Translations under genes and position numbers: made by a program
In this document: in pieces, positions 1-21,101 of the stretch
Numbering within the stretch: position 1 is the stretch's first letter
How the letters are laid out: every line of letters starts with the position of its first letter
Notes under the pieces: generated by a model
Database searches by the model: none
The model's input: only the letters and a program-made list of their open reading frames with translations
Told to the model about the DNA's origin: nothing
DNA from: a virus
Length of the DNA: 21,669 bases
IMG/VR virus record: IMGVR_UViG_3300035688_000074
Span: 1-21,669 of that record
Reading direction: 5' to 3' (one strand)

Positions 1-1493
1 TGACCGAAAGTGAATTCGGGAAACTCTTCGAGGAATTCCAGAAAGGCAAGTTGCCGGGGCCAGAAAGCAGAACGCGAGTCGTTGATTCGCTCGGCCACTC
101 TCTTGAAGTCGTTCCCGTCATGATACCCAAGATCCTTGACGGAATGCACACCGACATCATTGAACGGCCAATCATAGATATTCCGAAACCCGTCAGCGGC
201 CCCGCTGAACACATGAAGAAATATCGCCCCGTCCCAGGAGGCGTCTCACTAATCGCCTGCGACTCCTCGGCTTGCAGCTCACACTTCTGGGTTCGAGGAG
301 ATCCAACACACAAAGCCCACAAGGATTGTCTGAACTCTGGCTGGTATGGTACCATAGAGCTCGCTGGGAAGAAGTACACAGGCTGCTGGCATCTCGCCCA
401 GAACTACCACTGCGGAATGAACTTCAGCACTGACGGCTCGCCCTATCCTGCGGGCCACGGATGGGCTCAGCCCTCACCCTATGATGGTGGGCTCTGTCCA
501 GGCGACGTCGTCTCCTATCGGCATACTTTCATCATTCCTGTTCAGCCATACCAGGAGAACGAATTTGACTATCTACTGACGAATGCAGCCGATCTGAATT
601 ATGTCAGCGCTGATGTTCTAGACTTTGGCGGAATCAGCATCGTCTATTGGGAACCGCAGGTCGATTGGGAATGCTGGAGCTCTTCACGGACAGAAGGAAC
701 CACTTCAGGTAAGATCATAGCCACTGAAGTCATGATCGGTGTCAACTATGAATTCTTCATCGCCTATGTGAACCATTGCATCGAGCATACAGCGAAGATC
801 TCTGGCGGAAGCTCAGGCTCGAGCTTTCTCGCCAGGCCGTCGGGAGCAGCCATTGGCCTCGCAGGAGTCAACTTCGCAGGATCCTCGACAACGAACTACG
901 CTATCGCTCTCCCTGCCATCGCTCGAGATTACGGAGTCGAGTTTGATTGGGCCGCTCATCCTGATGGTGAGCAGCCGCCTGAATGTCCGCCCGGCCAGCA
1001 TTGGGATCCAACACAAGGCAAATGCGTGCCCGACCAGCCTGAATGTCCGCCAGGGCAACATTGGGATCCAGACCAGGGCAAATGTGTCCCTGACGAAGAA
1101 CCGCCGACCGATTGCTGGACACCATTCCTCGAATGCATCATGGGCTGGGATGGCTCTGATCTAGACTACCTCATCAACTGCATCGTTGGCCTAGTCATGT
1201 GCCTAGTAGAGCAGGGCATGATAACGCGCAACCAGAAGCAAGCAATAGTCAACTTGGTGTTGAGCAAAGCCCGAGATAAGAAGCAGGTAAGCAAGGTCTT
1301 GGAGAAGTACCAACTAAAGGAGAAAGACTATCGAGGAGCATTCGCTCTCGGAACTCTGTTCGCATGCGGCATCTTCGGTGCCCTTTCGATCTGGTTCCCG
1401 AACGCGCTCGCGATATTCACTTTCTTCGGCGGCCTCACAGCCCGCGAGATCGAACACTACTTCAGCGCCAAGAGCAAAGCGCCCAGCGCGTGA
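1..1493 (+). CDS. Trypsin-fold serine protease with Cys repeats and membrane-anchored C terminus
   Basis: The frame is open from the first bases. The window begins 'tgacc' in this frame, so the base just outside probably completes an ATG/GTG/TTG start, giving about 497 residues; a TTG at 51 is an inferior start. Numbering is from that inferred start. The core resembles chymotrypsin-fold proteases of bacterial and phage genomes: RPVPGGVS (~76-83), then GCWHLAQN with a likely catalytic His (~131), an Asp-rich stretch (~198-208) that may supply the acid, RTEGTTSGKI (~230, like the family's GRTTG-TTG strand) and GGSSGSSF with the candidate nucleophile Ser (~272), followed by AIGLAGVNFAGSST. Two tandem Cys repeats follow (~327-365). 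The last ~120 residues hold one or two hydrophobic segments (~390-405 and ~445-480), suggesting membrane anchoring. It may process a virion or envelope protein, or act on the host. Fold assignment is fairly sure; substrate unknown. Confidence 0.72.
   Translation, partial: TESEFGKLFEEFQKGKLPGPESRTRVVDSLGHSLEVVPVMIPKILDGMHTDIIERPIIDIPKPVSGPAEHMKKYRPVPGGVSLIACDSSACSSHFWVRGDPTHKAHKDCLNSGWYGTIELAGKKYTGCWHLAQNYHCGMNFSTDGSPYPAGHGWAQPSPYDGGLCPGDVVSYRHTFIIPVQPYQENEFDYLLTNAADLNYVSADVLDFGGISIVYWEPQVDWECWSSSRTEGTTSGKIIATEVMIGVNYEFFIAYVNHCIEHTAKISGGSSGSSFLARPSGAAIGLAGVNFAGSSTTNYAIALPAIARDYGVEFDWAAHPDGEQPPECPPGQHWDPTQGKCVPDQPECPPGQHWDPDQGKCVPDEEPPTDCWTPFLECIMGWDGSDLDYLINCIVGLVMCLVEQGMITRNQKQAIVNLVLSKARDKKQVSKVLEKYQLKEKDYRGAFALGTLFACGIFGALSIWFPNALAIFTFFGGLTAREIEHYFSAKSKAPSA
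978..1097 (+). repeat. Two tandem 60-bp repeats (Cys-rich protein repeat)
   Basis: Two in-frame copies of a 60-bp unit (978-1037 and 1038-1097), each coding PECPPGQHWDP-QGKCVPD. They differ mainly at synonymous or conservative positions. Each copy carries two cysteines, which looks like a small disulfide-bonded extracellular repeat between the protease domain and the C-terminal membrane region. Confidence 0.85.
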
Positions 1494-1559
1494 AGTCGTG
1501 TTAGGTTTCGTTCTCGACCTAGCGGAGGCTGAATCTTCGATGTTGGAGTGCATGCCAAA

Positions 1560-2540
1560 ATGAAGAAGAAAGAAACCCTGTTCAACATTCCCGTAGTTGT
1601 TGCTGTGGGTTCAGGCGGCGGAAGAATCCTATCATCCCTTAACACGAAATCCTTCAACGGCTACAAGATAGCGGTAAACAACAGCGTTCGCGACTTAGCT
1701 CTTCTCAAGAATGTTGACAGTAAAATCTGTGTTGGCAACGATCAAGGCGGTTCGGGGATGAGTGTGGAGAAAGGCAGGAGAGACTTCCTTCAGGGCGCAT
1801 CTCAAGTTCTCCGAGTGATGAAAACTCAATGCAGAACAAAACCAGACATCATCCCTGTCATAGCTACACTAGGCCACGGGTTCGCTTCCGGTTCAATACC
1901 TGAAATGCTACGCATTCTCAAAAGAACCTATCCTGACTCTGTTACATTAGCTTGGTGCATTACGCCGTTCGACCTTCAAGGCAACGAGATCCGAGGGCGT
2001 GCCTACGAATCCCTACGGAAATGCCGAGAAGTAGGCGCAACCATAACCCCAATCTCAAATCAAGTAGCCATCAACAAATTGGGCTTATCCCAGCGAATGC
2101 CGCTGGGCCAACTATACCAAACAATCAACCGAGAAATCACCGACATCCTATCCGACCTATTCGAAGCCTTCACGACAACTGAAGGTGTCATAGAATCCCT
2201 TGACAGAAACGACCTGAAACAAATCTGGGTTGGAGAGTCAGCGCTGATTTCTCGTGTTACGTATCCTGATGCTTCATCCATTAATGGGGGTTCATTGAAA
2301 GACGCCGAGCAACGTTTACTCGTAGATGTCAACTATCTTGAAGGAGCAGAGCAACCCACTGCAACCTACATCATTGATGGGCCTGGGGAAATCACCGTAG
2401 ACCAAATGACTGAACTATCCAACAGCCTAATTGCAGATTACAAGGCCGACATGACCTACTTCAAACCTTTAATCATCCAACGCAAGCGCCAGAACACCAG
2501 TTTCATTCTGATACGGGGCAAAATGAGGTTGGGAATATGA
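1560..2540 (+). CDS. Divergent FtsZ/tubulin-superfamily GTPase
   Basis: A 326-residue protein with the ordered motifs of FtsZ/tubulin. Positions count from ATG 1560: T1 loop VGSGGG (~16-21), AVNNSVRDL (~38-46, like FtsZ INTD-L), GGSGMSVEKGR (~63-73, T3), LGHGFASGS (~104-112) where FtsZ has GGGTGTG (T4), ITPFDLQG (~134-141, T5), PISNQ (~164-168, T6) and a T7 loop SLDRNDLKQIW (~213-223). The T7 loop keeps both catalytic Asp (215, 218) of NxDxxD. The C-terminal domain has GGSLKDAEQRLL and IIDGPGEITVDQMTEL (~271-286), matching FtsZ's second domain. No FtsZ-type C-terminal tail is visible. Start: GGAG at 1544-1547 lies 12 nt before ATG 1560; GTG 1548 is possible but abuts that site. The next gene overlaps by ATGA. 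Likely a filament-forming GTPase; viral relatives by role include PhuZ and TubZ. The superfamily call is strong; whether it is closer to FtsZ, CetZ or TubZ cannot be settled here. Confidence 0.82.
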   Translation: MKKKETLFNIPVVVAVGSGGGRILSSLNTKSFNGYKIAVNNSVRDLALLKNVDSKICVGNDQGGSGMSVEKGRRDFLQGASQVLRVMKTQCRTKPDIIPVIATLGHGFASGSIPEMLRILKRTYPDSVTLAWCITPFDLQGNEIRGRAYESLRKCREVGATITPISNQVAINKLGLSQRMPLGQLYQTINREITDILSDLFEAFTTTEGVIESLDRNDLKQIWVGESALISRVTYPDASSINGGSLKDAEQRLLVDVNYLEGAEQPTATYIIDGPGEITVDQMTELSNSLIADYKADMTYFKPLIIQRKRQNTSFILIRGKMRLGI

Positions 2541-2815
2541 ACAGGGTCGCATCATCCGCATTAGCCTTCTGGATCGGCGTCGCTCTCTCCACGGTTTCAG
2601 CCTACATCGGCAGTCAACTAAACATGCCATTCTCATATGCAATTGTCGGTCTAATCGCGGGGTCAGGCTCCACAGTAGCTCTCATCACCATCAATAATGA
2701 AATTACTAGAAGGCAGCATGAACGAGAACTTGAAAAAAGGCGCCAAGCTGACCTAGAACGTAAACATCAAAGAGAACGAGAAAAGAAGCAACCCGGTTCG
2801 TATGCAGTACCATAA
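2537..2815 (+). CDS. Small two-helix membrane protein with charged coiled-coil tail
   Basis: 92 residues. Two hydrophobic helices (~7-25 and ~32-52) are followed by a highly charged Arg/Glu/Lys-rich segment (~57-88) with coiled-coil character and a short C-terminal tail. The start ATG overlaps the stop of the FtsZ-like gene (ATGA, 2537-2540), so the two are almost certainly translationally coupled. By position and architecture it could anchor the FtsZ-like protein to the membrane, as ZipA- or FtsA-type adaptors do for FtsZ; this is inference and no homology to those proteins is seen. A holin- or spanin-like role cannot be excluded. Confidence 0.75.
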   Translation: MNRVASSALAFWIGVALSTVSAYIGSQLNMPFSYAIVGLIAGSGSTVALITINNEITRRQHERELEKRRQADLERKHQREREKKQPGSYAVP

Positions 2816-2841
2816 GATTTGATTCTACGAGGGATACTTTC

Positions 2842-3006
2842 ATGCCTACCATAACTGGAACTTGGCTGTCACCGCTCAACCGATTTCTAGGCATCTTTTG
2901 CCGAGTCCTAATCCGAATTGAGGACGACAAGAACGCTGAGATCATCGGCCGCTACCATATCGTGACAGTCGCACAGTACGGATTCGCATGTGGACATCAG
3001 ATGTGA
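2842..3006 (+). CDS. 54-residue protein of unknown function
   Basis: ATG 2842 is preceded by GAGGGA (2829-2834) at good spacing, and the frame runs 54 codons to TGA 3004-3006. The protein has an amphipathic/hydrophobic stretch (LNRFLGIFCRVLIRI, ~12-26), a charged middle (EDDKN) and a C-terminal FACGHQM. It is not recognised. Its TGA is followed at once, in the same frame, by the TTG of the next gene, so the two are contiguous apart from this stop. A peripheral membrane or regulatory role is possible. Confidence 0.55.
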   Translation: MPTITGTWLSPLNRFLGIFCRVLIRIEDDKNAEIIGRYHIVTVAQYGFACGHQM

Positions 3007-3528
3007 TTGACCTTGAAAGGCCCAAGGCTCGAATACCTAACAAGCATCGTCGTGACCCTGACCTTCGCGATACTCTATGGCGTTCTGGAATACTACTGGA
3101 TAATCACGGACCGAGACGTGCCTTTCCGATATGGCCACACACCGATCTTCATCGGCTTCCAGCTCTACCATATCGCGGTGATGATGCCGATCCTGTTTCT
3201 GGTCGGCTTCGCTCCTTTCATTGATGATCTGATAGGCGTGAGTCAGATAATCGAGAAATGGTACACGGCTTCGCTCGGTTTCGCAACAACTGTCTTCGCT
3301 GTTATGCTTGAAGATATCGTGTGGTTCCTAGCAAGAGTTCTGAATCCGCTCTCAATGGATCCGCTGGGCGGCCAGTGGATTCAGGCTACAGACTGGACCG
3401 CAAGATGGAATTCTATTCCATTTCCTGGCGGCGTCATTCCAACCTGGTACTGCCTGATCGCAGTCTTCGCAGGTGTCATGTGGATATGCGTCTTCAGACA
3501 TGAGGCGATAAGATCTGACACCCGGTGA
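3007..3528 (+). CDS. Integral membrane protein, about four helices
   Basis: 173 residues from TTG 3007; TTG 3013 is an alternative. Hydrophobic segments lie near 12-32, 45-70 (through HIAVMMPILFLVGFA), 85-110 and 145-162. Polar loops include DPLGGQWIQATDWTARW. No family is recognised. No good ribosome-binding site precedes the TTG; translation may depend on termination at the TGA directly upstream. The end overlaps the next membrane gene if that one starts at CTG 3515. It sits in a run of small membrane proteins after the FtsZ-like pair. Confidence 0.65.
   Translation: MTLKGPRLEYLTSIVVTLTFAILYGVLEYYWIITDRDVPFRYGHTPIFIGFQLYHIAVMMPILFLVGFAPFIDDLIGVSQIIEKWYTASLGFATTVFAVMLEDIVWFLARVLNPLSMDPLGGQWIQATDWTARWNSIPFPGGVIPTWYCLIAVFAGVMWICVFRHEAIRSDTR
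3502..3507 (+). promoter_or_regulatory. Ribosome-binding site favouring a CTG start at 3515
   Basis: GAGGCG lies 7 nt before CTG 3515, inside the end of the preceding gene. It is the only Shine-Dalgarno-like site near either candidate start of the HH-motif membrane protein, so it argues for the longer, non-ATG-initiated form. Confidence 0.35.
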
Positions 3529-4712: not shown

Positions 4713-5174
4713 ATGACCAAGAAAAGACGGAAACGCGGGGGTCGTGTCCGAAAGCGCCGGAAAGAAAGGGGCCATAGCCACACCCCCCCTTACTCTCCGC
4801 CGAGCGTGGATCCGAAGATTAAGGGTCAGTATCTGAAGGCTCAGATTAGGAAGATCGAACGGCAGCTCGCTCCTCTCGGCATCAAGATTAACATAAACTC
4901 GCTTGAGGATCTCAAGGCTTTCGTCAACAAGCTGATGCAGCTTCAGGCGGACAAGAAGATCGAAAGCCACGAAACGAGAGTCCTGAATGATTCATGCGAG
5001 ATCTTGAGGAAGATCTATCAGCCAAGCGATCTCGAGGAAACCGTGAATGAGCTTCTCAAAGAGGCGCAAAGTCTCCGAGAAAGTGTCTCTGATCTTAGGA
5101 AGCATGGCGTCGGCCAAGGCGGAGCTCGAGGCGGTACGCAACCCGATTCCTCAGGATCCAGTCCAGTGGGCTGA
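4713..5174 (+). CDS. Basic coiled-coil protein, candidate terminase small subunit
   Basis: 153 residues. The first 22 residues are almost solid Lys/Arg (KKRRKRGGRVRKRRKERG), followed by a Pro linker and helical, charged segments (~37-125) such as YLKAQIRKIERQL and VNELLKEAQSLRESV. The Gly/Ser-rich C terminus is where the reading frame overlaps the terminase large-subunit gene. Position immediately upstream of and overlapping TerL, a basic DNA-binding N terminus and an oligomer-like helical body together suggest the small terminase subunit. No classical helix-turn-helix is visible, so the call rests largely on context. Confidence 0.6.
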   Translation: MTKKRRKRGGRVRKRRKERGHSHTPPYSPPSVDPKIKGQYLKAQIRKIERQLAPLGIKININSLEDLKAFVNKLMQLQADKKIESHETRVLNDSCEILRKIYQPSDLEETVNELLKEAQSLRESVSDLRKHGVGQGGARGGTQPDSSGSSPVG

Positions 5175-6663
5175 ACGCATCCGAATCCTCAAGGGCGCTC
5201 CGTTCAGCTTCCAGGATCGAGACTATCTGCTTCCGCTCTACCGCGACAACTCGCACCGAGTCATCATCGTGAAATCTCGGCAGATGGAGATGACCGAGTG
5301 GATCGTCAACTGGCTTCTCTATAAGCTGACCACGTATCCCTTCATAACCGCAATCTACACCGCGCCGCGAATGGATCAGGTTTCAAGATTCAGCCACGAC
5401 CGATTCCGCAAAGCCCTATTCGACAGCCCAGAGCTCCGCGACTATATCAGCAAGGCGCGAGAGGCAGAGCTTGGAGAAACCGCGATCGGCAGAATCCCCT
5501 TCTCGAACGGCTCAATCTGCTATCTCATCAGCGCATGGGGAGACTTCGACGCTCTAAGAAACATTCCAGCAGACTTCGCAGCCATAGATGAAATGCAGGA
5601 CGTCCAGCAAGAAGCGATCCCTGTCCTTGAAGAGACACTCAGCCACAGCCAATTCGGAACAATGATCATGGTTGGAACCGCAAGCGATGAGGGCTCGGAA
5701 TTCTCGCGACTCTGGCAACAAAGCGATATGAACGAATGGGATCCAGAATCAGGCGCATGGATTCCGCAGAGACCTCAGAACCGATTCTACTCAGGATATC
5801 ACATAGATCAACGCATGGCTCCGTGGATCAACAGCCTCCCGCCCACTCATCCCAACAGCATAGAAGCCAAACGCATCCGCTACCGAAGCGAGCGCAGATT
5901 CCTCAACGAAGTTCTCGGCCTCTTCTATCGGGGTCTTGCTAAGCCGTTGATCTCTGAGGATCTTCTAGCTTGCAGAGACTTCCAATTCGCCCTGATGGAT
6001 CACCTTGATCCGCCATACGTCTCGTATGCTGGCATTGATTGGGGCGGCGGACAACACGCCTTCACCGTCGTCTGGATCATGGCGAAGGACGATAAAGACC
6101 GCTGGCGACTCATCTACGTTCGCAAATTCGATGAACGCGACCCCATGAAGCAAGTCCAGATCATCAGCAACCTCATCCCGCTCTTCAATGTGAAACAGGC
6201 CGTGGCAGACATCGGATACGGTGCCGTACAAGTCAGCGAGCTCCAGAAGAAGTTCGCTGATCGACTCCTCGGCTGCCAATACACTCGCAGACCCGAGATC
6301 CCTCTTGAGCGTCGAACCTCAGACGAGTATGGCAAGCGCGTTGCCCAGATGATTCTCCTAGCTGACCGCTCATTCTGGATTGAGACCGCTATCGAGCTCA
6401 TCAAGCATAAGGATCCAACTGGCGCAGTCAATCCGCTGCTCGTGCTTCCGTGGAAGGAACCGCTTGACGTCGAATGGCTCATGGACCACTTCACCTGCAT
6501 CGAGATGGAAGAACAGGAGACAGTTAGCGGCAAGAAGTATCATCACTACACGCATCCCGAAGGCGAACCTGACGACGCACTCCACGCTTTCATCTACGCA
6601 TTGATCGCTGACGCCTATGGCCGCATGGCTCCGCCTCTAGTCGTACAAGACCTATTCGGATGA
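5104..6663 (+). CDS. terL: Terminase large subunit (TerL), ATPase-nuclease
   Basis: 519 residues from ATG 5104, which has AGGA just upstream and still overlaps the previous gene by 71 bp; an in-frame ATG at 5047 would lengthen it by 19. The enzyme pumps viral DNA into the prohead and cuts it. Numbered from 5104: a deviant Walker A, KSRQMEMTE (~57-65); Walker B FAAIDEMQD (~158-166) with the catalytic Glu; a coupling motif VGTASDEGS (~190-198). The RNase H-like nuclease domain shows AGIDWGGG (Asp ~312), AVADIGYG (Asp ~369) and PDDALHAFIYAL (Asp ~490-491), a complete acidic triad. Length and motif order are normal for TerL. The Walker A lacks the usual GK[S/T], as in a number of terminases with SRQ-x-x-x-[ST]-E. 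High confidence. Confidence 0.93.
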   Translation: MASAKAELEAVRNPIPQDPVQWAERIRILKGAPFSFQDRDYLLPLYRDNSHRVIIVKSRQMEMTEWIVNWLLYKLTTYPFITAIYTAPRMDQVSRFSHDRFRKALFDSPELRDYISKAREAELGETAIGRIPFSNGSICYLISAWGDFDALRNIPADFAAIDEMQDVQQEAIPVLEETLSHSQFGTMIMVGTASDEGSEFSRLWQQSDMNEWDPESGAWIPQRPQNRFYSGYHIDQRMAPWINSLPPTHPNSIEAKRIRYRSERRFLNEVLGLFYRGLAKPLISEDLLACRDFQFALMDHLDPPYVSYAGIDWGGGQHAFTVVWIMAKDDKDRWRLIYVRKFDERDPMKQVQIISNLIPLFNVKQAVADIGYGAVQVSELQKKFADRLLGCQYTRRPEIPLERRTSDEYGKRVAQMILLADRSFWIETAIELIKHKDPTGAVNPLLVLPWKEPLDVEWLMDHFTCIEMEEQETVSGKKYHHYTHPEGEPDDALHAFIYALIADAYGRMAPPLVVQDLFG

Positions 6664-8129: not shown

Positions 8130-11100
8130 TTGGTTTCAGCATTACGCATAGTCTCAGCGGATCCCCTAGTTCGGGATAGGCTCAACCGCCTAGAAGACAA
8201 CACTATCACGAAAGGCGTCATGGACACGATCTATCCCTGGTGGTGGGATGAGAGAGAGTTTCCACGCCGCGCCGTCATGACAGAGTGGTTCTATAATCCG
8301 CTGAAAGGTCAGCCTAGGTACATAGATGTCTACCGTTACCGTAGCCTAGCGGCTTCTGAATGGGTAGCCATGTGCGTCATGACAATCATTGAAGAGGTCG
8401 CGCAGATTCCATGGGAGATCATCCCGAAGGATCCTAAACTCCGCGAATCTCCGCCGGAAGATATTCTAGCGGACATTGATGAGGCCACATACTTCTTCAA
8501 CAATCCAAACGACAACAAAGGCGAAACGCTCAACACGCTTCTGCGAGCTCTCATACGGGACAGCCTAGAACTTGACGCGGCAACGCTTGTGAAAGGCTTC
8601 TCACTCAACAGCTATGTGCAGCATCCCGCAGGCGGATTCGAACTTAAACCCAGAGGCCAAAGACAACTCAGCGAACTCTTCTGCCGCGACGGCGCCAGCT
8701 TCCTAAAGGAAACTGATGTGAACGGAATCGAGTACCGCTATTGGCAGTACAGCTACCTGCATCCCGCTGTCGCACCGATCGAGTTTGATGTGAATGAGAT
8801 CGCCTATGCGATGCGTTACAACCGCTCATACAGCGTCTACGGCTGGGCTGAGACTCAAAGCGCTGAAACGATTCTGAACTGTCTCATCAACTCGGCTTTC
8901 ACGAACGCCAGCATGTTCCAGGAATACGCTGTGCCCTCAGGCGTCGTTTCCTTCACTGGCAGCGAGGAAGATGAACAGAGGCTACGGGAATACTTCCGAA
9001 CCGAGATCAAAGGAAGATTCCACAAAGTCGCCATACTCAACAAAGAAGCAAAATTCACGCCGCTAACCTACACGAACCGAGACTTAGAGTTCATCAAAGG
9101 CCAAGAATGGTTCGCAAAAATCATGTGGGCGATCTACAAACTCACACCAAGCGAAGTCGGCTTCACCGATGATATTCGAGCTACAGGCGCGGCGATGTCC
9201 GCTCAAGGCACGATCCAAAAACGCAAAGCCATCCTGCCATTACTCAGACTCCTAGAACAGATCCTGAACAATCAGATCCTGAATGAAATCTCTGACCGCA
9301 TAGTTTTGTCGTTCAAGTATGTTGACAAGGAACAGGAAGCTCTCGAAGATCAGATGGATTTCCAGAAGATTCAGCAAGGCATTATGAAAATCAACGAGTA
9401 CCGTGCCAGAAAGAAGTTAGGCCCGTCTGTTCCATGGGGTGAGAAACCGCTTCAACTAACCCTCGCCGAACTGAAAGGAGGCCAACAGCCCGGCCTCTTC
9501 GGAGCTCCCAAGCCACATCTGAACATTCCAACAGGACCAGAAAAGGGCATACCGAAGATACCGCTCACAGCCGAAGACCAAGCCATCGTTGAAGGCATGA
9601 AAGCATGGGGCGGCGTCCCAACTGAAGGCTACGATTTCGCAGAGGGCTCACTCGGCGGAAACAATCTCTACGCGGCTCCAGTTCTCACCTATGATAACAG
9701 AACCGGCCAGGTGAAAATTCTCCCACAAGGCGCAATGACGATCCCAGGCCGACGCTACATAACCCGAGATGGAAAAGTATTCTATGTTCCACAACGGAAG
9801 CCGCTGCCCATTAAACCATCAGAGCCAACGAAGACGATCCTACGTTCACCAAAGACGAAAGCGTTCACTGACACCGCGCATGATGTTCTGAAACAATACT
9901 TGAAGCCAACTCGAGAACCTTTCATCGGCCCCTATGAAGGCGACCGGAAACCGCGACCTAAGCCCATGAGCGGAGTTGGCGGCAACCCAAAAGAATCAAT
10001 CCGGGACGGCATGATGCTGCCTGGAGAAAGCCCTGAAGAAATACGTCGAAGCCGCGATGCAACCGGGCCTAAAGCTGGGAGACCAAGAGCACGCCAAAGC
10101 GGCGGATCCGACCAGGACTACCCGATGGGCGCGTTAGCGTACAGGCCCGACGAGCCCGTTAGAGACAACGACCTCGGCCCAGAGCAAACCCCTGAAGGAA
10201 TCGCCCGCGCTCGCGTCAGCAGGGAATATGAGCGGCCCACGAAACCCTTCGGACCAATCCATCACACTGACACACAAAGAACAGGACCAAAAGATTCCTA
10301 CCAAGGCGGACCCGGCAACATCGGCGGAAAATACAAGCGCCGTCAAGGCGGACGCATACGCAAGATCGGCCATCCACCGCCTGGAGAAGGCCCGCAATCT
10401 ACAGGTGAAGTTTGGCGTGGAAAACAGGAAGGACCAGAGAAGGGCGACCTGCATAAAGGCGGCATGGGTGCCCATCGCTGGGAACGTGACGAAACCAATG
10501 TTCCAATCGCAACAGTCACAGAAGAATCCGGCGCTCACATAGATCCGCACTACATGAAGAAACCTTACCCGGGCAGACATCGAGAAATCACTGAAGGCGG
10601 CGGTTATGATGTTGAATCAAGAATCGTTCCCACACGAGCCGACAGCCCGAAAATCATTGACGCTTCAATTCCTCATGATGACCGCGCCTATCTAGATCGT
10701 AAGTTTGTTCGTGTGAAGCTGTCTAAAGCTGATTTGAACGTGGACAAGGTGTGGAAAACCCATGACCTGTCTGAAGCGCGAATGAACGAATACTTTGACA
10801 TGTTCGATAAAGAACGGAAGGAACACCCAGATTTCATGCGGGAGCAAATTTGGCAAATCGTCAAAGACGACATGGAGAAGAAAGGTTTAGCGCCGAAAGC
10901 TCGGAAACGACCAACACAGCCAGATAACGCTCCAGTCGCTCCACTCGCCAAGCCAAGAGAGAACTTGGATCCTACAGGCGGAGCCAGCACAGAACAAGCC
11001 CCACGACTGAAACCAACACCTACAATTCCGCGAGGCCCGAAATATCCGAAAGATGTTCCACCCATTCAGCCTGATACAGGCGCAGTAGGCGCTATGAGAG

Positions 11101-11789
11101 CAACGGCTCCAAGCGGAGCCAAATATGTTCTACGGGATAAGCGGGGAGCTCCGCCACCATTCAAGAAATCTGAGAGCACGGATACGGGCAGCCTCGGCCC
11201 AGACCACCGCGAAACCCTCGGCTACACGGAACGTGACTTATCGAAAATTCATGATGGCGTGCAGCGCACCGCCTGGGCTGACAAAGGCATCAAAGTCAAC
11301 CCGCACACAATACAAGAAGCTACAGGCATCCCACCCCCAAACAAGAAACAGGTGAACGCTTACGATGCTCGCCAAGAATGGAAAGGCGGACGCCTAGAAA
11401 CCCATCTCATCCCCGCCCCGAAGAAATCTGACATTCAGAAGCGAAGAAAAATGCGACTAGCCAACAAAACCATCATCGGCCCTGAGCATGGACATGCACC
11501 AGTCTTTCAGGGCAGCGTGAAAGCTGAACGTGGACTAGCCCGCAAACTCACAGAGATCATGAAAGCCTTCCGCGCTGGCAGCATGAGTCGAGAAGCTGCG
11601 CTTAAGGCAGCCGTCAAGGCGATTGATGAGAACCAGGCTCGAATCAGCGAGATCGCTAGGAAACATGCAAGCCGAGTAATTGGCAAAGAAATCAGCGAAC
11701 TCGCCCCAGAGGTTGCAGAGCGACTTGAAAGAATTCGCACTCAAGCTGTCGGCGACTTCGAGAGCATTCTGAAAGATGCAGCAAGTTGA
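8130..11789 (+). CDS. Portal protein with ~700-residue C-terminal extension
   Basis: 1219 residues from TTG 8130, with AGAGGTAAGTGA upstream. The first ~450 residues look like an HK97-type portal: an N-terminal YRYRSLAASEWVAMCV helix, LIRDSLELDAATLVKGF, an AYAMRYNRSYSVYGWAETQS stretch, KLTPSEVGFTDDIRATGAAM (~340-360) and a stem-like helix with ILPLLRLLEQIL. Phage portals are usually 400-600 residues. Beyond ~480 the protein is Pro/Gly/Arg/Lys-rich, with an internal near-repeat (GESPEEIRRSRDA / EQTPEGIARARVS), a globular-looking stretch (~845-930, RKFVRVKLSKADLNVDKVW) and an Ala-rich helical C terminus (~1145-1219). The extension may be a fused internal-scaffold or ejected protein. Portal identity is well supported; the extension is unexplained. 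Confidence 0.8.
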   Translation: MVSALRIVSADPLVRDRLNRLEDNTITKGVMDTIYPWWWDEREFPRRAVMTEWFYNPLKGQPRYIDVYRYRSLAASEWVAMCVMTIIEEVAQIPWEIIPKDPKLRESPPEDILADIDEATYFFNNPNDNKGETLNTLLRALIRDSLELDAATLVKGFSLNSYVQHPAGGFELKPRGQRQLSELFCRDGASFLKETDVNGIEYRYWQYSYLHPAVAPIEFDVNEIAYAMRYNRSYSVYGWAETQSAETILNCLINSAFTNASMFQEYAVPSGVVSFTGSEEDEQRLREYFRTEIKGRFHKVAILNKEAKFTPLTYTNRDLEFIKGQEWFAKIMWAIYKLTPSEVGFTDDIRATGAAMSAQGTIQKRKAILPLLRLLEQILNNQILNEISDRIVLSFKYVDKEQEALEDQMDFQKIQQGIMKINEYRARKKLGPSVPWGEKPLQLTLAELKGGQQPGLFGAPKPHLNIPTGPEKGIPKIPLTAEDQAIVEGMKAWGGVPTEGYDFAEGSLGGNNLYAAPVLTYDNRTGQVKILPQGAMTIPGRRYITRDGKVFYVPQRKPLPIKPSEPTKTILRSPKTKAFTDTAHDVLKQYLKPTREPFIGPYEGDRKPRPKPMSGVGGNPKESIRDGMMLPGESPEEIRRSRDATGPKAGRPRARQSGGSDQDYPMGALAYRPDEPVRDNDLGPEQTPEGIARARVSREYERPTKPFGPIHHTDTQRTGPKDSYQGGPGNIGGKYKRRQGGRIRKIGHPPPGEGPQSTGEVWRGKQEGPEKGDLHKGGMGAHRWERDETNVPIATVTEESGAHIDPHYMKKPYPGRHREITEGGGYDVESRIVPTRADSPKIIDASIPHDDRAYLDRKFVRVKLSKADLNVDKVWKTHDLSEARMNEYFDMFDKERKEHPDFMREQIWQIVKDDMEKKGLAPKARKRPTQPDNAPVAPLAKPRENLDPTGGASTEQAPRLKPTPTIPRGPKYPKDVPPIQPDTGAVGAMRATAPSGAKYVLRDKRGAPPPFKKSESTDTGSLGPDHRETLGYTERDLSKIHDGVQRTAWADKGIKVNPHTIQEATGIPPPNKKQVNAYDARQEWKGGRLETHLIPAPKKSDIQKRRKMRLANKTIIGPEHGHAPVFQGSVKAERGLARKLTEIMKAFRAGSMSREAALKAAVKAIDENQARISEIARKHASRVIGKEISELAPEVAERLERIRTQAVGDFESILKDAAS

Positions 11790-12042: not shown

Positions 12043-12298
12043 GCTCGCGGATCTCTCGCATCACCTAACCTGGAGCACTGTGAACACAGCCATCAAAGAA
12101 CAACTCGCCGTCGTTGAAGATGACTACCAAGCGACAACCGGGGAACCGTCAGGCCTCAAACTCTATTGGACAACGATGGACGATGAGAATGTCTGCGACT
12201 ACTGCAACGACCAACAAGGCGAATACTCATTCGATGATCCATTCCTGCCCATGATTCCCGGTCATGTTATGTGCAGATGTTTTTGGTTGATCGAATAG
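11969..12298 (+). CDS. MuF/SPP1 gp7-like head morphogenesis protein (short form)
   Basis: 109 residues. Starts at ATG 11969, the first usable start in this frame (open only from 11951). The C-terminal half carries the MuF-family signature: YWTTMDDENVCDYCNDQQG (~65-83) then PGHVMCRCFWLIE (~97-109), that is D-x4-C-x2-C ... P-x-H-x2-C-R-C. A helical N-terminal part (LADLSHHLTWSTVNTAIKEQL) precedes it. MuF proteins are minor head proteins encoded just after the portal, as here; typical members are 250 or more residues, so this one is short. The missing N-terminal helical part could reside in the portal's C-terminal Ala-rich helices. Confidence 0.75.
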   Translation: MTRTGSNLSVAVEDYWKSLKGLLARLADLSHHLTWSTVNTAIKEQLAVVEDDYQATTGEPSGLKLYWTTMDDENVCDYCNDQQGEYSFDDPFLPMIPGHVMCRCFWLIE

Positions 12299-12310
12299 CC
12301 TACGAGGAAA

Positions 12311-12317
12311 GGAAGGA
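12311..12317 (+). promoter_or_regulatory. Ribosome-binding site that decides the methyltransferase start
   Basis: GGAAGGA is 7 nt before TTG 12325. The alternative ATG at 12271 lies within the MuF-like gene and has no comparable site. Confidence 0.55.
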
Positions 12318-12324
12318 TTCAACT

Positions 12325-13044
12325 TTGATCAGCGAGCAGCTAATCGAGGAAATCCTAGCCCAGAAGAGCGCTCCTGCCCACATCACGAAACCTGAAGAGC
12401 TCAACATTGAAAAGCAGCGGCAACGAGCAGACGCCGCCCGATACCTCAGCAATCATCGCACGATCCTCGAGCTCTACGCTGGCGAGGGAAATCTCAGCGA
12501 GAAAGTCTACGCTCCACTGAATCCGCGCCGAATGGTTCTGGTCGATGATGATGCCCGCGCCCTGGAGAAAGCCAAGGTTCGCCTGGCAAGGTTCGGTGTA
12601 AAGAAAGAATTCTATCCGATGTCAAACGAGCAATTCATCAAACGTGGATATCTCCGCAAGTATCCTGACATCAGCCTTGTCGATTTCGACGCCTACGGTT
12701 CGCCAGGCCGCATGGTTCAACTATTCTTCGATAACTATCGCGTCAGGCAGCCGATGATCGCAGCGTTGACAGACGGCTTCCCAACTGACATGAGACGCTG
12801 GAAGCGAGTGGACTGGTCTGATATGTATGCCCTGAAACAGGCGAGGCCGCCCACGCTTGGAGAGATCTGCACGTTCCATGATACGATGATGCGAAACTTG
12901 GGAGCTCGCAGACGATTCAAGTCTTGGCGAATTGGTCGAGCGTTCGGGGGGAAGTCTGGTCGAGCGGTCTACGGAGCTTACTTGCTGCGGCCTCTGGATA
13001 CTGGTTCCAAGTCTTTCCATCCAGGTCCCTTCCCAGGATCTTAG
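12325..13044 (+). CDS. Class I SAM methyltransferase, Trm1-like
   Basis: 239 residues from TTG 12325 (ATG 12271 would add 18). Rossmann-fold motifs: ILELYAGEGN (~47-56, SAM-binding motif I), MVLVDDDARALEKAK (~70-84, acidic motif II) and SLVDFDAYGSPG (~117-128, motif IV). The last recalls the D-x-DP-[FY]-GSP of Trm1 tRNA (guanine-N2) methyltransferases; here FDA replaces DP. It is followed by a hydrophobic strand IAALTDG. Substrate could be tRNA or DNA. It lies between head genes and converges with the reverse-strand DUF5131 gene, overlapping it by 128 bp. TcmP proteins, which co-occur with that family, also have a methyltransferase-like fold, so a functional pair is possible. Confidence 0.75.
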   Translation: MISEQLIEEILAQKSAPAHITKPEELNIEKQRQRADAARYLSNHRTILELYAGEGNLSEKVYAPLNPRRMVLVDDDARALEKAKVRLARFGVKKEFYPMSNEQFIKRGYLRKYPDISLVDFDAYGSPGRMVQLFFDNYRVRQPMIAALTDGFPTDMRRWKRVDWSDMYALKQARPPTLGEICTFHDTMMRNLGARRRFKSWRIGRAFGGKSGRAVYGAYLLRPLDTGSKSFHPGPFPGS

Positions 13045-13711
13045 GAGCAAACCCGGACCACTGCTTAAAGAAGAACGGGACGCCTTGCCCGACGCATTGA
13101 TCTCTGATGTCGCGAGGCCAATCAGGATTCATAGGTCGGAAATGGGGTCCACTCTCTCCGCCGACAATCACCCAGGAGATTCCTGAAAGATCGAGCGGTG
13201 CCAAGGCGCTGAGAAGCGGTTCACAACTGATGAATCGCACTCGAACAGGAACCTGACGGAGCAGATCAATTCGCCGCTTCGTTGAAGCATCCTCAACGGT
13301 CACGCCCATCCAGACGTAATCGGGAATCGGGCCGTGGTCTTTCACGTATTGCTGAGTGAACGCAAGCATCCTTTGAGGCCGCTTCGTGAGAATCTGATAG
13401 ATATGCCAATCAGCCGCCTTCATGACATCGAAGACTTTCAATAGAAACCAAGTCGGCATCTCTTCATGAAAGAGATCGCTCATAGAATCTACGAAGATCA
13501 GCCGCGAGCGTTTCCATCTGATCGGAATGTCCAAGGCATCAGTATGGATCGTGAACTGAAATCCATCGCGATACTTCGGAGCTCCTGCCAGCTTAAGCCT
13601 CACAGCGTAAGAGCAAGCGTAACAATTCTTGCAGCCTGCTGAGACCTTCGTGCATCCTGTTGACGGATTCCAAGTCGCTTCCGTCCATTCGATCTTAGAC
13701 TTCGGCCCCAT
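12917..13711 (-). CDS. DUF5131 / phage Gp37-Gp68 three-Cys-motif protein
   Basis: 264 residues, read from 13711 down. It starts SKIEWTEATWNPSTGCTKVS and has C-x6-C-x2-C (Cys 20, 27, 30; plus Cys 33) as GCTKVSAGCKNCYAC. Further family features are FVDSMSDLFHEEMP (~73-86), ILTKRPQRM (~107-115), WMGVTVED (~134-141), FISCEPLLS (~160-168), WVIVGGESG (~180-188) and PFFFKQWSGF near the end. These match the phage Gp37/Gp68 family. Biochemical function is not established; the Cys triad suggests an iron-sulfur cluster of radical-SAM type (inference). Last gene of the reverse operon. GGTGCGAG just upstream of ATG 13711 serves as a weak ribosome-binding site. Confidence 0.9.
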   Translation of the reverse strand: MGPKSKIEWTEATWNPSTGCTKVSAGCKNCYACSYAVRLKLAGAPKYRDGFQFTIHTDALDIPIRWKRSRLIFVDSMSDLFHEEMPTWFLLKVFDVMKAADWHIYQILTKRPQRMLAFTQQYVKDHGPIPDYVWMGVTVEDASTKRRIDLLRQVPVRVRFISCEPLLSALAPLDLSGISWVIVGGESGPHFRPMNPDWPRDIRDQCVGQGVPFFFKQWSGFAPKILGRDLDGKTWNQYPEAAASKLRRPLDQTSPRTLDQFAKT

Positions 13712-19847: not shown

Positions 19848-21101
19848 ATGAGCCACCTGAAATTAGTTGACCCCGAACAAGGCAGAGCTACAGGAGCAGG
19901 CGCAGGAGAAGCTGCTCGACCATACTACAGCACAGTAGACAATGCTGTTCTAACACCGCCCGTTCAAGGAGGAACACCCGCAGGTATCCTTGCTGGCCTC
20001 GTTGGATTAGCAGCCTTCCCTGAAGGCACAGTAATCTACGAGGGCTTGAAGGATAACGGGGAACTCGGCCTAGACCACCGCCAAATGTACCTCGGCTGGA
20101 TCCGCAAGAAGATGCGGATGCGAAGCCTACGCACGAAAGGCTTCCTAGACTCAACCAGCGCCATCGTACACACCACAACCGACCAAGAGATCATAGATAC
20201 CACACGCCGAGAAACACCACTCCTAGAACTCATCGCCCAAGAAACCGCCCGAGGTAAGGTTGCGAACTACGATGTGCTAACCGCCCGAGGAGCAGCATTG
20301 GGTGTCACTGAAACTGTTGCTGCTCAAACACCAGCCTCAGACACCTTCGTGAATGCCGGAAAAGCCTTGGGCATCTTCACAGCATGGGGTGGATGGACTG
20401 ACTTCGGCTTAGCCGCAATGGCAAGCCAGTACCCAACCCGTGACGCAAGAGCCATCGAAATCCGCAACAAAACATGGAGCCTCAACGAAACCGATGAGAA
20501 CGAAATCCTCAACGGAGGAACCACGCTTGAATCAGCCTTCAACGCAGGCTCAGTCGGATTCAACGGCATACGGGCTGAGATAATCGGCTCAGTCGGAACC
20601 TACGCAGCACTACAGTCAAACCTGAACGGCGCAGACGCAAACGACAGCGACATTGACAACATGATCGCTCAAATGGTCCAGTTGAACGTCAAACCGAACC
20701 TAGCCATCACGGACTTGATGACATGGCAGAAGATCAAGCAACTCATGATGTCCATAGTCCGGTACATGAACCCTGAGACCGAAATCGCTTGGGGACTCAA
20801 AGCACTCGCATGGGCTACACCTTACGGTGTCATGCCGTTCATAGGCAGCAAGTTCATGCCAACCACAGCAGGCAGCCGAGAAATCATCTTCCTCGACACC
20901 AAGTTCCTTGCACAGCGCTTGCTACTGGACAGCACGATGGAGATGCTTGCGAAAGTCAGCATACAGCAACCCTTCGTCATCAAACGGTTCTTCAACTTCA
21001 TAGACAAGACAGATTCGAAGCCGCCAACCTACACGTACAACACGAACCCGAGCTCAACGGACGCTACCTCCAAGATGGGCCGCATCTACGGCGCAGCCTA
21101 A
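19848..21101 (+). CDS. Major capsid protein, HK97-fold candidate
   Basis: 417 residues. An N-terminal region with ARPYYSTVDNAVLTPPVQGG and a helical arm (QMYLGWIRKKMRMRSLRTKG), then LLELIAQETARGKVANYDVL, a central WGGWTDFGLAAMASQYPTRD and an A-domain-like LAITDLMTWQKIKQLMMSIV, TPYGVMPFIGSKFMP, IIFLDTKFLAQRLLLDST and KRFFNFIDKTDSK. The 'interface-target-strand' sequence YGVMPFIGSKFMP ... IIFLDTKF is typical of HK97-type capsids. Strong ribosome-binding site, position after the prohead protease, and length all agree. No clear close family is recognised. Confidence 0.8.
   Translation: MSHLKLVDPEQGRATGAGAGEAARPYYSTVDNAVLTPPVQGGTPAGILAGLVGLAAFPEGTVIYEGLKDNGELGLDHRQMYLGWIRKKMRMRSLRTKGFLDSTSAIVHTTTDQEIIDTTRRETPLLELIAQETARGKVANYDVLTARGAALGVTETVAAQTPASDTFVNAGKALGIFTAWGGWTDFGLAAMASQYPTRDARAIEIRNKTWSLNETDENEILNGGTTLESAFNAGSVGFNGIRAEIIGSVGTYAALQSNLNGADANDSDIDNMIAQMVQLNVKPNLAITDLMTWQKIKQLMMSIVRYMNPETEIAWGLKALAWATPYGVMPFIGSKFMPTTAGSREIIFLDTKFLAQRLLLDSTMEMLAKVSIQQPFVIKRFFNFIDKTDSKPPTYTYNTNPSSTDATSKMGRIYGAA

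Follow-up and report, generated by a model that had tools for sequence, protein, structure and literature searches.

Phages of bacteria are known to encode cytoskeletons; none has been described for archaeal head-tailed viruses in the literature searched, and the main texts of two papers treating Bathyarchaeia viruses and archaeal proviruses mention neither FtsZ nor tubulin (PMC10848311, PMC11705971). The locus described here raises the question of whether such a virus encodes a tubulin of its own, to which branch of the superfamily this protein belongs, and what it could do in the infected cell. The window, i.e., the whole stretch of DNA that was analyzed, covers all 21,669 bp of an IMG/VR virus record, a linear fragment that carries the hallmark genes of a head-tailed virus (TerL, portal, MuF-like, and capsid; Table 1).

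An intact tubulin-like protein with a variant T4 loop

The viral protein matches the Pfam Tubulin family (PF00091) with an E value of 7.9e-10 and 39.8 bits, above the curated cut-off of 33 bits. Its score against the NCBIfam ftsZ model is 37 bits, far below the equivalog cut-off of 295 bits, and in phmmer its residues 11-317 align with FtsZ1 of M. jannaschii (E 2.5e-8). A GTG at position 1548 is an alternative start. AlphaFold2 (AF2), run from a five-member alignment, predicts a complete two-domain FtsZ-like fold (pLDDT 82.2, pTM 0.86). With this model, Foldseek retrieves structures of FtsZ, CetZ, and TubZ (best E 2e-15; TM 0.74 to FtsZ), and only ten viral models match at E < 0.001, the named ones being tubulin/FtsZ-like. 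The initial annotation had read the gene as encoding a tubulin-superfamily GTPase, and the profile searches and structure prediction it proposed both bear this out. Its FtsZ-like second domain holds in the predicted structure, where the domain is modeled and aligns over its full length with FtsZ structures, but not in Pfam, where neither FtsZ_C nor CetZ_C is matched.

Table 1. Positions of the tubulin-like gene, its loops, the surrounding cassette, and the virus hallmark genes in the window
Feature	Position	Strand	Basis
Protease-like gene (phrog protease), upstream flank of cassette	51..1493	+	95.6% identical in sister virus L002
Accessory cassette	1526..3007		blastn alignment with L002 ends at 1525 and restarts at 3008
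Tubulin/FtsZ-superfamily GTPase, 326 aa from ATG	1560..2540	+	Pfam Tubulin, AF2, Foldseek
T1 loop VAVGSGGGRI	1599..1628 (residues 14-23)	+	Alignment
T3 region GNDQGGSGM	1734..1760 (residues 59-67)	+	Alignment
T4 loop TLGHGFASGSIPE, non-canonical	1866..1904 (residues 103-115)	+	Alignment
T7 loop ESLDRNDLKQI, catalytic-type Asp pair D215 and D218	2193..2225	+	Sequence, alignment
92-aa membrane hairpin protein	2537..2815	+	Sequence, hydropathy, AF2
54-aa ORF inside cassette	2842..3006	+	ORF list
Membrane-protein-like gene, downstream flank of cassette	3007..3528	+	96% identical in L002
Terminase large subunit	5047..6663	+	phrog_675, E 8.6e-73
Portal protein with long C-terminal extension	8130..11789	+	PF04860, E 8.8e-24
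Major capsid protein	19848..21101	+	phrog_25898, E 1.9e-8

The loops can be followed in order, as had been noted at the outset, and were compared in an alignment of 146 proteins. The arginine of T1 is shared with CetZ-type proteins at a position where FtsZ has asparagine, and the GSGM of T3 is specific to the clade described below. T5 is CITPFDLQGNEIRG, T6 is PISNQVA, and T7 retains both aspartates. The reported departure of T4 from the GGGTG[ST]G signature is real: the core of this phosphate loop reads LGHGFASGS, with phenylalanine in place of threonine and histidine in place of glycine, and the glycine frame is retained as in the cellular relatives. The signature GGGTG(S/T)G is usual across the superfamily and not strictly universal (PMC2875224). 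Given the T4 substitutions, the GTPase activity of the viral protein may be weak or altered. Judged from sequence and model, the gene product is an intact tubulin/FtsZ-superfamily GTPase with a predicted two-domain fold.

The viral protein belongs to a rare archaeal tubulin clade

A search of 257 Bathyarchaeia genomes with the viral protein returned ordinary FtsZ proteins of only 22-30% identity and, in one MAG (G056), a pair that is clearly closer (E 1e-24 and 3e-18). Further members were found in G312, G335, and G461 by a Thermoproteota-wide search. The viral protein is 39% and 37% identical along its length to the proteins of G335 and G461, respectively, and 25-28% identical to those of G056 and G312.

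In three trees the viral protein and four cellular proteins are monophyletic (support 99-100), their branch is longer than two changes per site, and the viral protein lies nearest to those of G335 and G461 (UFBoot 99-100, SH-aLRT 94-97). It is a member of a rare archaeal clade apart from FtsZ1/FtsZ2 and PhuZ, the last of which is distant and on a very long branch, and apparently also from the CetZ groups, which join it with support of only 44/15. Forcing the viral protein inside a 32-member FtsZ group costs 133 log units (p-AU 1e-82), which rules out a host FtsZ captured by the virus. Searched against PDB, the family profile prefers CetZ (3zid, 2.3e-28) to FtsZ (1e-14), and TubZ reaches 1e-7. 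These results overturn the initial annotation where it placed the protein closer to FtsZ, and also its suggestion of a distinct viral branch, given that the nearest kin are cellular; its separation from PhuZ and TubZ is upheld. The AU test does not reject a topology with the viral protein as outgroup to all cellular members (p 0.076); acquisition of the gene by the virus from a cell is favored, but neither direction of transfer is proven.

The variant T4 loop extends across this clade. All five members in the alignment, i.e., the four cellular homologues and the viral protein, depart from GGGTG[ST]G. The loop reads [SL/SV]GHGFGSGSLPE, SAGFGFGSGSGPK, or TAGYGCGSGAGPE in the cellular kin, with LGHGFGSGSLPE / VGHGFGSGSLPE common to the G335 and G461 proteins. 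Because it is common to the cellular homologues, the odd loop is a trait of the clade and not a mark of decay, and the reading as a degenerate gene is rejected.

The cellular genes sit in two kinds of surroundings. In G335 and G461 they adjoin an Hdr-linked operon for a group-4-type hydrogenase, which includes HdrB-like and antiporter subunits, and their products end in an amphipathic C-terminal tail (muH 0.47-0.56). In G056 and G312 they lie within operons with a TadA-type ATPase and TadC-type membrane proteins. TadA/TadC-type operons ending in a tubulin of this clade occur at L081:1-9538 and L082 and at L113:8908-19446; in the Bathyarchaeia MAG concerned, a paralogous tubulin preceded by the same gene lies on a second contig. 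The L113 locus has HerA- and NurA-like genes nearby and so may be a mobile element.

A deep, uncharacterized FtsZ-like clade between FtsZ2 and CetZ has been reported from Culexarchaeia, with members also in Thermoplasmata, Bathyarchaeia, and Geothermarchaeales, as cellular genes only, and in Culexarchaeia a hydrogenase is tied to HdrBC as well as to an antiporter subunit (PMC9723716). G335 and G461 fit this account, matched by description, through their hydrogenase type and their class, a group of 40 genomes that includes a Methanomethylicales MAG. The cellular clade, and with it that of the viral tubulin, is therefore probably the Culexarchaeia FtsZ-like clade.

Members are rare. No other genome of the 40-genome class has a clade gene, and profile searches found no further member in the class of G312 (44 genomes) or in the re-searched Bathyarchaeia. 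In the phyla that include a Methanocellales MAG (247 genomes) and a Jordarchaeum MAG (227 genomes), no score exceeded 103 bits, the level of CetZ/FtsZ proteins, compared with more than 430 for clade members, which are themselves in the profile. Two other kinds of FtsZ-like genes were encountered. Bathyarchaeia proteins of about 450 aa with the T1 loop GLGHCGGKI (L049:898-2274, L109:1327-2664) form a separate long branch. Thermoproteota tandem arrays of three to four genes of about 312-345 aa (L118:6785-11012, L116:5118-9343, L117:5921-10458) form a clade apart from FtsZ1/FtsZ2; they were rejected as kin of the viral protein for their canonical or near-canonical T4 and different clade.

The cassette, the virus, and its host

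Terminase and capsid searches gathered 12 related virus records (L002-L017). The terminase of the sister virus L002 is 98.5% identical to that of the tubulin virus, and nucleotide identity is 94.8% up to position 1525 and 96.9% from 3008 (blastn). The intervening 1.48 kb holds the tubulin gene and the 92-aa ORF; in sister viruses the slot is occupied by other genes, a P-loop ATPase gene (185 aa) in L002 and an 82-aa membrane protein in L005. The cassette edges coincide with gene borders, and the slot is variable in other relatives too. Of the 25 genes, the tubulin gene and the 92-aa ORF are the poorest in GC, both overall (0.47 versus 0.49-0.58) and at third positions (0.51 and 0.43). The P-loop ATPase of L002 (L002:7354-7911) has a weak PADLOC match to mad8 (2.4e-8), and a similar gene lies elsewhere in the related record G004 (L019:5040-5636).

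The start of the 92-aa ORF overlaps the stop codon of the tubulin gene (ATGA). Hydropathy indicates two transmembrane stretches (approximately residues 4-28 and 32-53) and, after them, a helical tail with charged residues; AF2 from the single sequence predicts helices at 2-28 and 32-84, a hairpin in which one helix is long (pLDDT 78). Neither this protein nor the 54-aa ORF has a homologue among the compared loci. PADLOC matched neither the tubulin gene nor the 92-aa ORF, and a defense-system reading of the cassette was rejected. The overlapping membrane-protein gene and the accessory nature of the cassette were absent from the initial annotation.

A clade tubulin is known from a single virus among those searched. 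The 11 related records that were checked whole contain no tubulin homologue, and a maximum-sensitivity profile search of the compared viral loci found none. No further viral member emerged from IMG/VR, searched with the single protein and two alignments, from a DNA pattern search for T4, or from a search of phage records; plasmids searched with the L114 protein held no further clade member.

The best indication of the host comes from G004, the record of L005, whose terminase is 85% identical to that of the tubulin virus. At its end lie CarS (CDP-archaeol synthase; PF01864, E 1e-19) and an OST3/OST6-like gene, a pair that is adjacent in six Bathyarchaeota MAGs; among the CarS loci compared, the OST3/OST6-like gene was present at no other. 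Because this sister record ends in host DNA with a Bathyarchaeia gene order, an archaeal host is supported, as the initial annotation had supposed for a head-tailed virus. From this sister record only, we infer that the tubulin virus most likely infects a member of the sediment-dwelling Bathyarchaeia. A further related record, G006, carries an integrase, and alignment of the terminase against genome contigs revealed no provirus.

Other features of these genomes deserve mention. A DUF5131 gene lies on the minus strand at 12917-13711 (PF07505, E 5e-94) and matches the PADLOC candidate families PDC-M30B/M41B (E 1e-100). Its tail overlaps that of a plus-strand methyltransferase-like ORF at 12271-13044, which has a DFDAYGSP motif and no Pfam match. 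In L002, a small ORF after the terminase (L002:11632-11781) is 68% identical to 50 aa of the portal, apparently a partial duplication.

Possible roles and comparison with known systems

The reading we prefer, with a probability of roughly 40%, is that a GTP-driven, membrane-recruited tubulin filament, partnered with the hairpin protein and encoded by a horizontally acquired gene, reshapes or organizes the infected cell. The protein would bind GTP, polymerize head to tail, and use the T7 aspartates for GTP hydrolysis. The hairpin protein, translated together with it, would bring the filament to the host membrane, standing in for the amphipathic C-terminal helix of the nearest cellular kin. The filament might then reorganize the host envelope or interior during infection or the provirus state, acting on cell shape, on division, or at a membrane-bound site where virus is made. 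The donor of the gene would have been a cellular archaeon or a different mobile element. Consistent with this mechanism are the fold, the T7 aspartate pair, the support for the clade, the ATGA overlap, and the borders and low GC of the cassette; the TadA/TadC-type operons of cellular relatives, being membrane machines, favor a membrane role. Since the hairpin protein has no homologue, it is the gene overlap that points to its partnership with the tubulin.

A filament that centers or segregates the viral genome, a kind of role put forward in the initial annotation, is less probable, though it has precedent: both characterized types of phage tubulin position or partition genomes (PMC7950403), and archaeal Borg elements also bear tubulin-like genes. 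Partition is less favored here because direct repeats are absent near the gene and its neighbor encodes a membrane protein rather than a DNA-binding, TubR-like one. An integrase in one related record and host DNA in another point to integration, a state in which a partition system is unneeded; the gene is also missing from near-identical viruses and so is not essential. PhuZ-type positioning may nevertheless apply. Viral accessory genes often target the host, many Bathyarchaeia have FtsZ proteins, and the altered T4 could suit a divergent tubulin that poisons host FtsZ, assembles together with it, or interferes with the site of division. This inhibitor role, which the initial annotation also raised as a block of host division, is unlikely: at only 22-30% identity co-polymerization with host FtsZ is improbable, and the altered T4, being typical of the clade, is not a crippling mutation. 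It would be no less surprising if the gene were provirus cargo (a moron) serving the host, for instance in cell shape or a surface-filament machine, instead of virus reproduction. Sister viruses integrate, the slot is variable, and cellular relatives are housed in TadA/TadC operons, but the viral cassette has no TadA/TadC gene. An assembly artefact or a decaying passenger gene is very unlikely; a single copy, a low-GC segment, and a linear fragment would fit, but the ORF is complete with conserved motifs and the segment is bounded by gene borders in a slot that varies in other relatives. By sequence and model, the virus-borne tubulin of an unusual clade thus appears real and intact.

A tubulin-like gene next to one for a small membrane protein in such a virus hints that viruses of archaea, like those of bacteria, may deploy a cytoskeleton of their own inside host cells. 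The gene also ties an uncharacterized deep tubulin clade, hitherto seen in a few uncultured archaea, to mobile elements. The interest lies in the host domain, the clade, and the T4 loop, with a putative function and a single viral example, and the compact 326-aa protein is suited to direct study of the altered loop.

Among known systems, PhuZ (201phi2-1 gp59) and TubZ are likewise filament proteins of the tubulin superfamily borne by viruses or plasmids. They differ in context, PhuZ occurring in lytic jumbo phages and TubZ in plasmid-prophages, and PhuZ keeps a GGGSGS T4 on its distant branch. The sequence affinity of the viral tubulin to PhuZ and TubZ is not above that to FtsZ and CetZ, and the TubR-like adaptor and centromere repeats typical of TubZ were not found beside it. 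Borg elements offer another tubulin-like gene on an archaeal mobile element (PMC11208441, PMC12660748), but by description they are huge Methanoperedens elements and not head-tailed viruses. FtsZ1 and FtsZ2 share the fold, the two domains, and the T7 aspartate pair and differ in T1, T3, and T4. CetZ, whose Methanothrix/Methanosaeta structure is the best PDB match of the family profile, is alike in having R/K at the FtsZ asparagine position of T1; CetZ-type groups have SGGTGSS or GGGTGSG in T4 and their own branch, while the viral protein lacks GGTGS. Set against the Culexarchaeia FtsZ-like proteins, the viral one differs in having a membrane-protein partner and no amphipathic C-terminal tail. 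A viral member of this Culexarchaeia-type clade is new within the literature searched. The chance falls slightly short of even that an archaeal head-tailed virus independently captured, from an archaeal clade that is neither FtsZ nor CetZ and has a phosphate-loop sequence of its own, a filament-forming tubulin along with a dedicated anchor to the membrane, which would add a third viral tubulin system to the two formed by PhuZ and TubZ.
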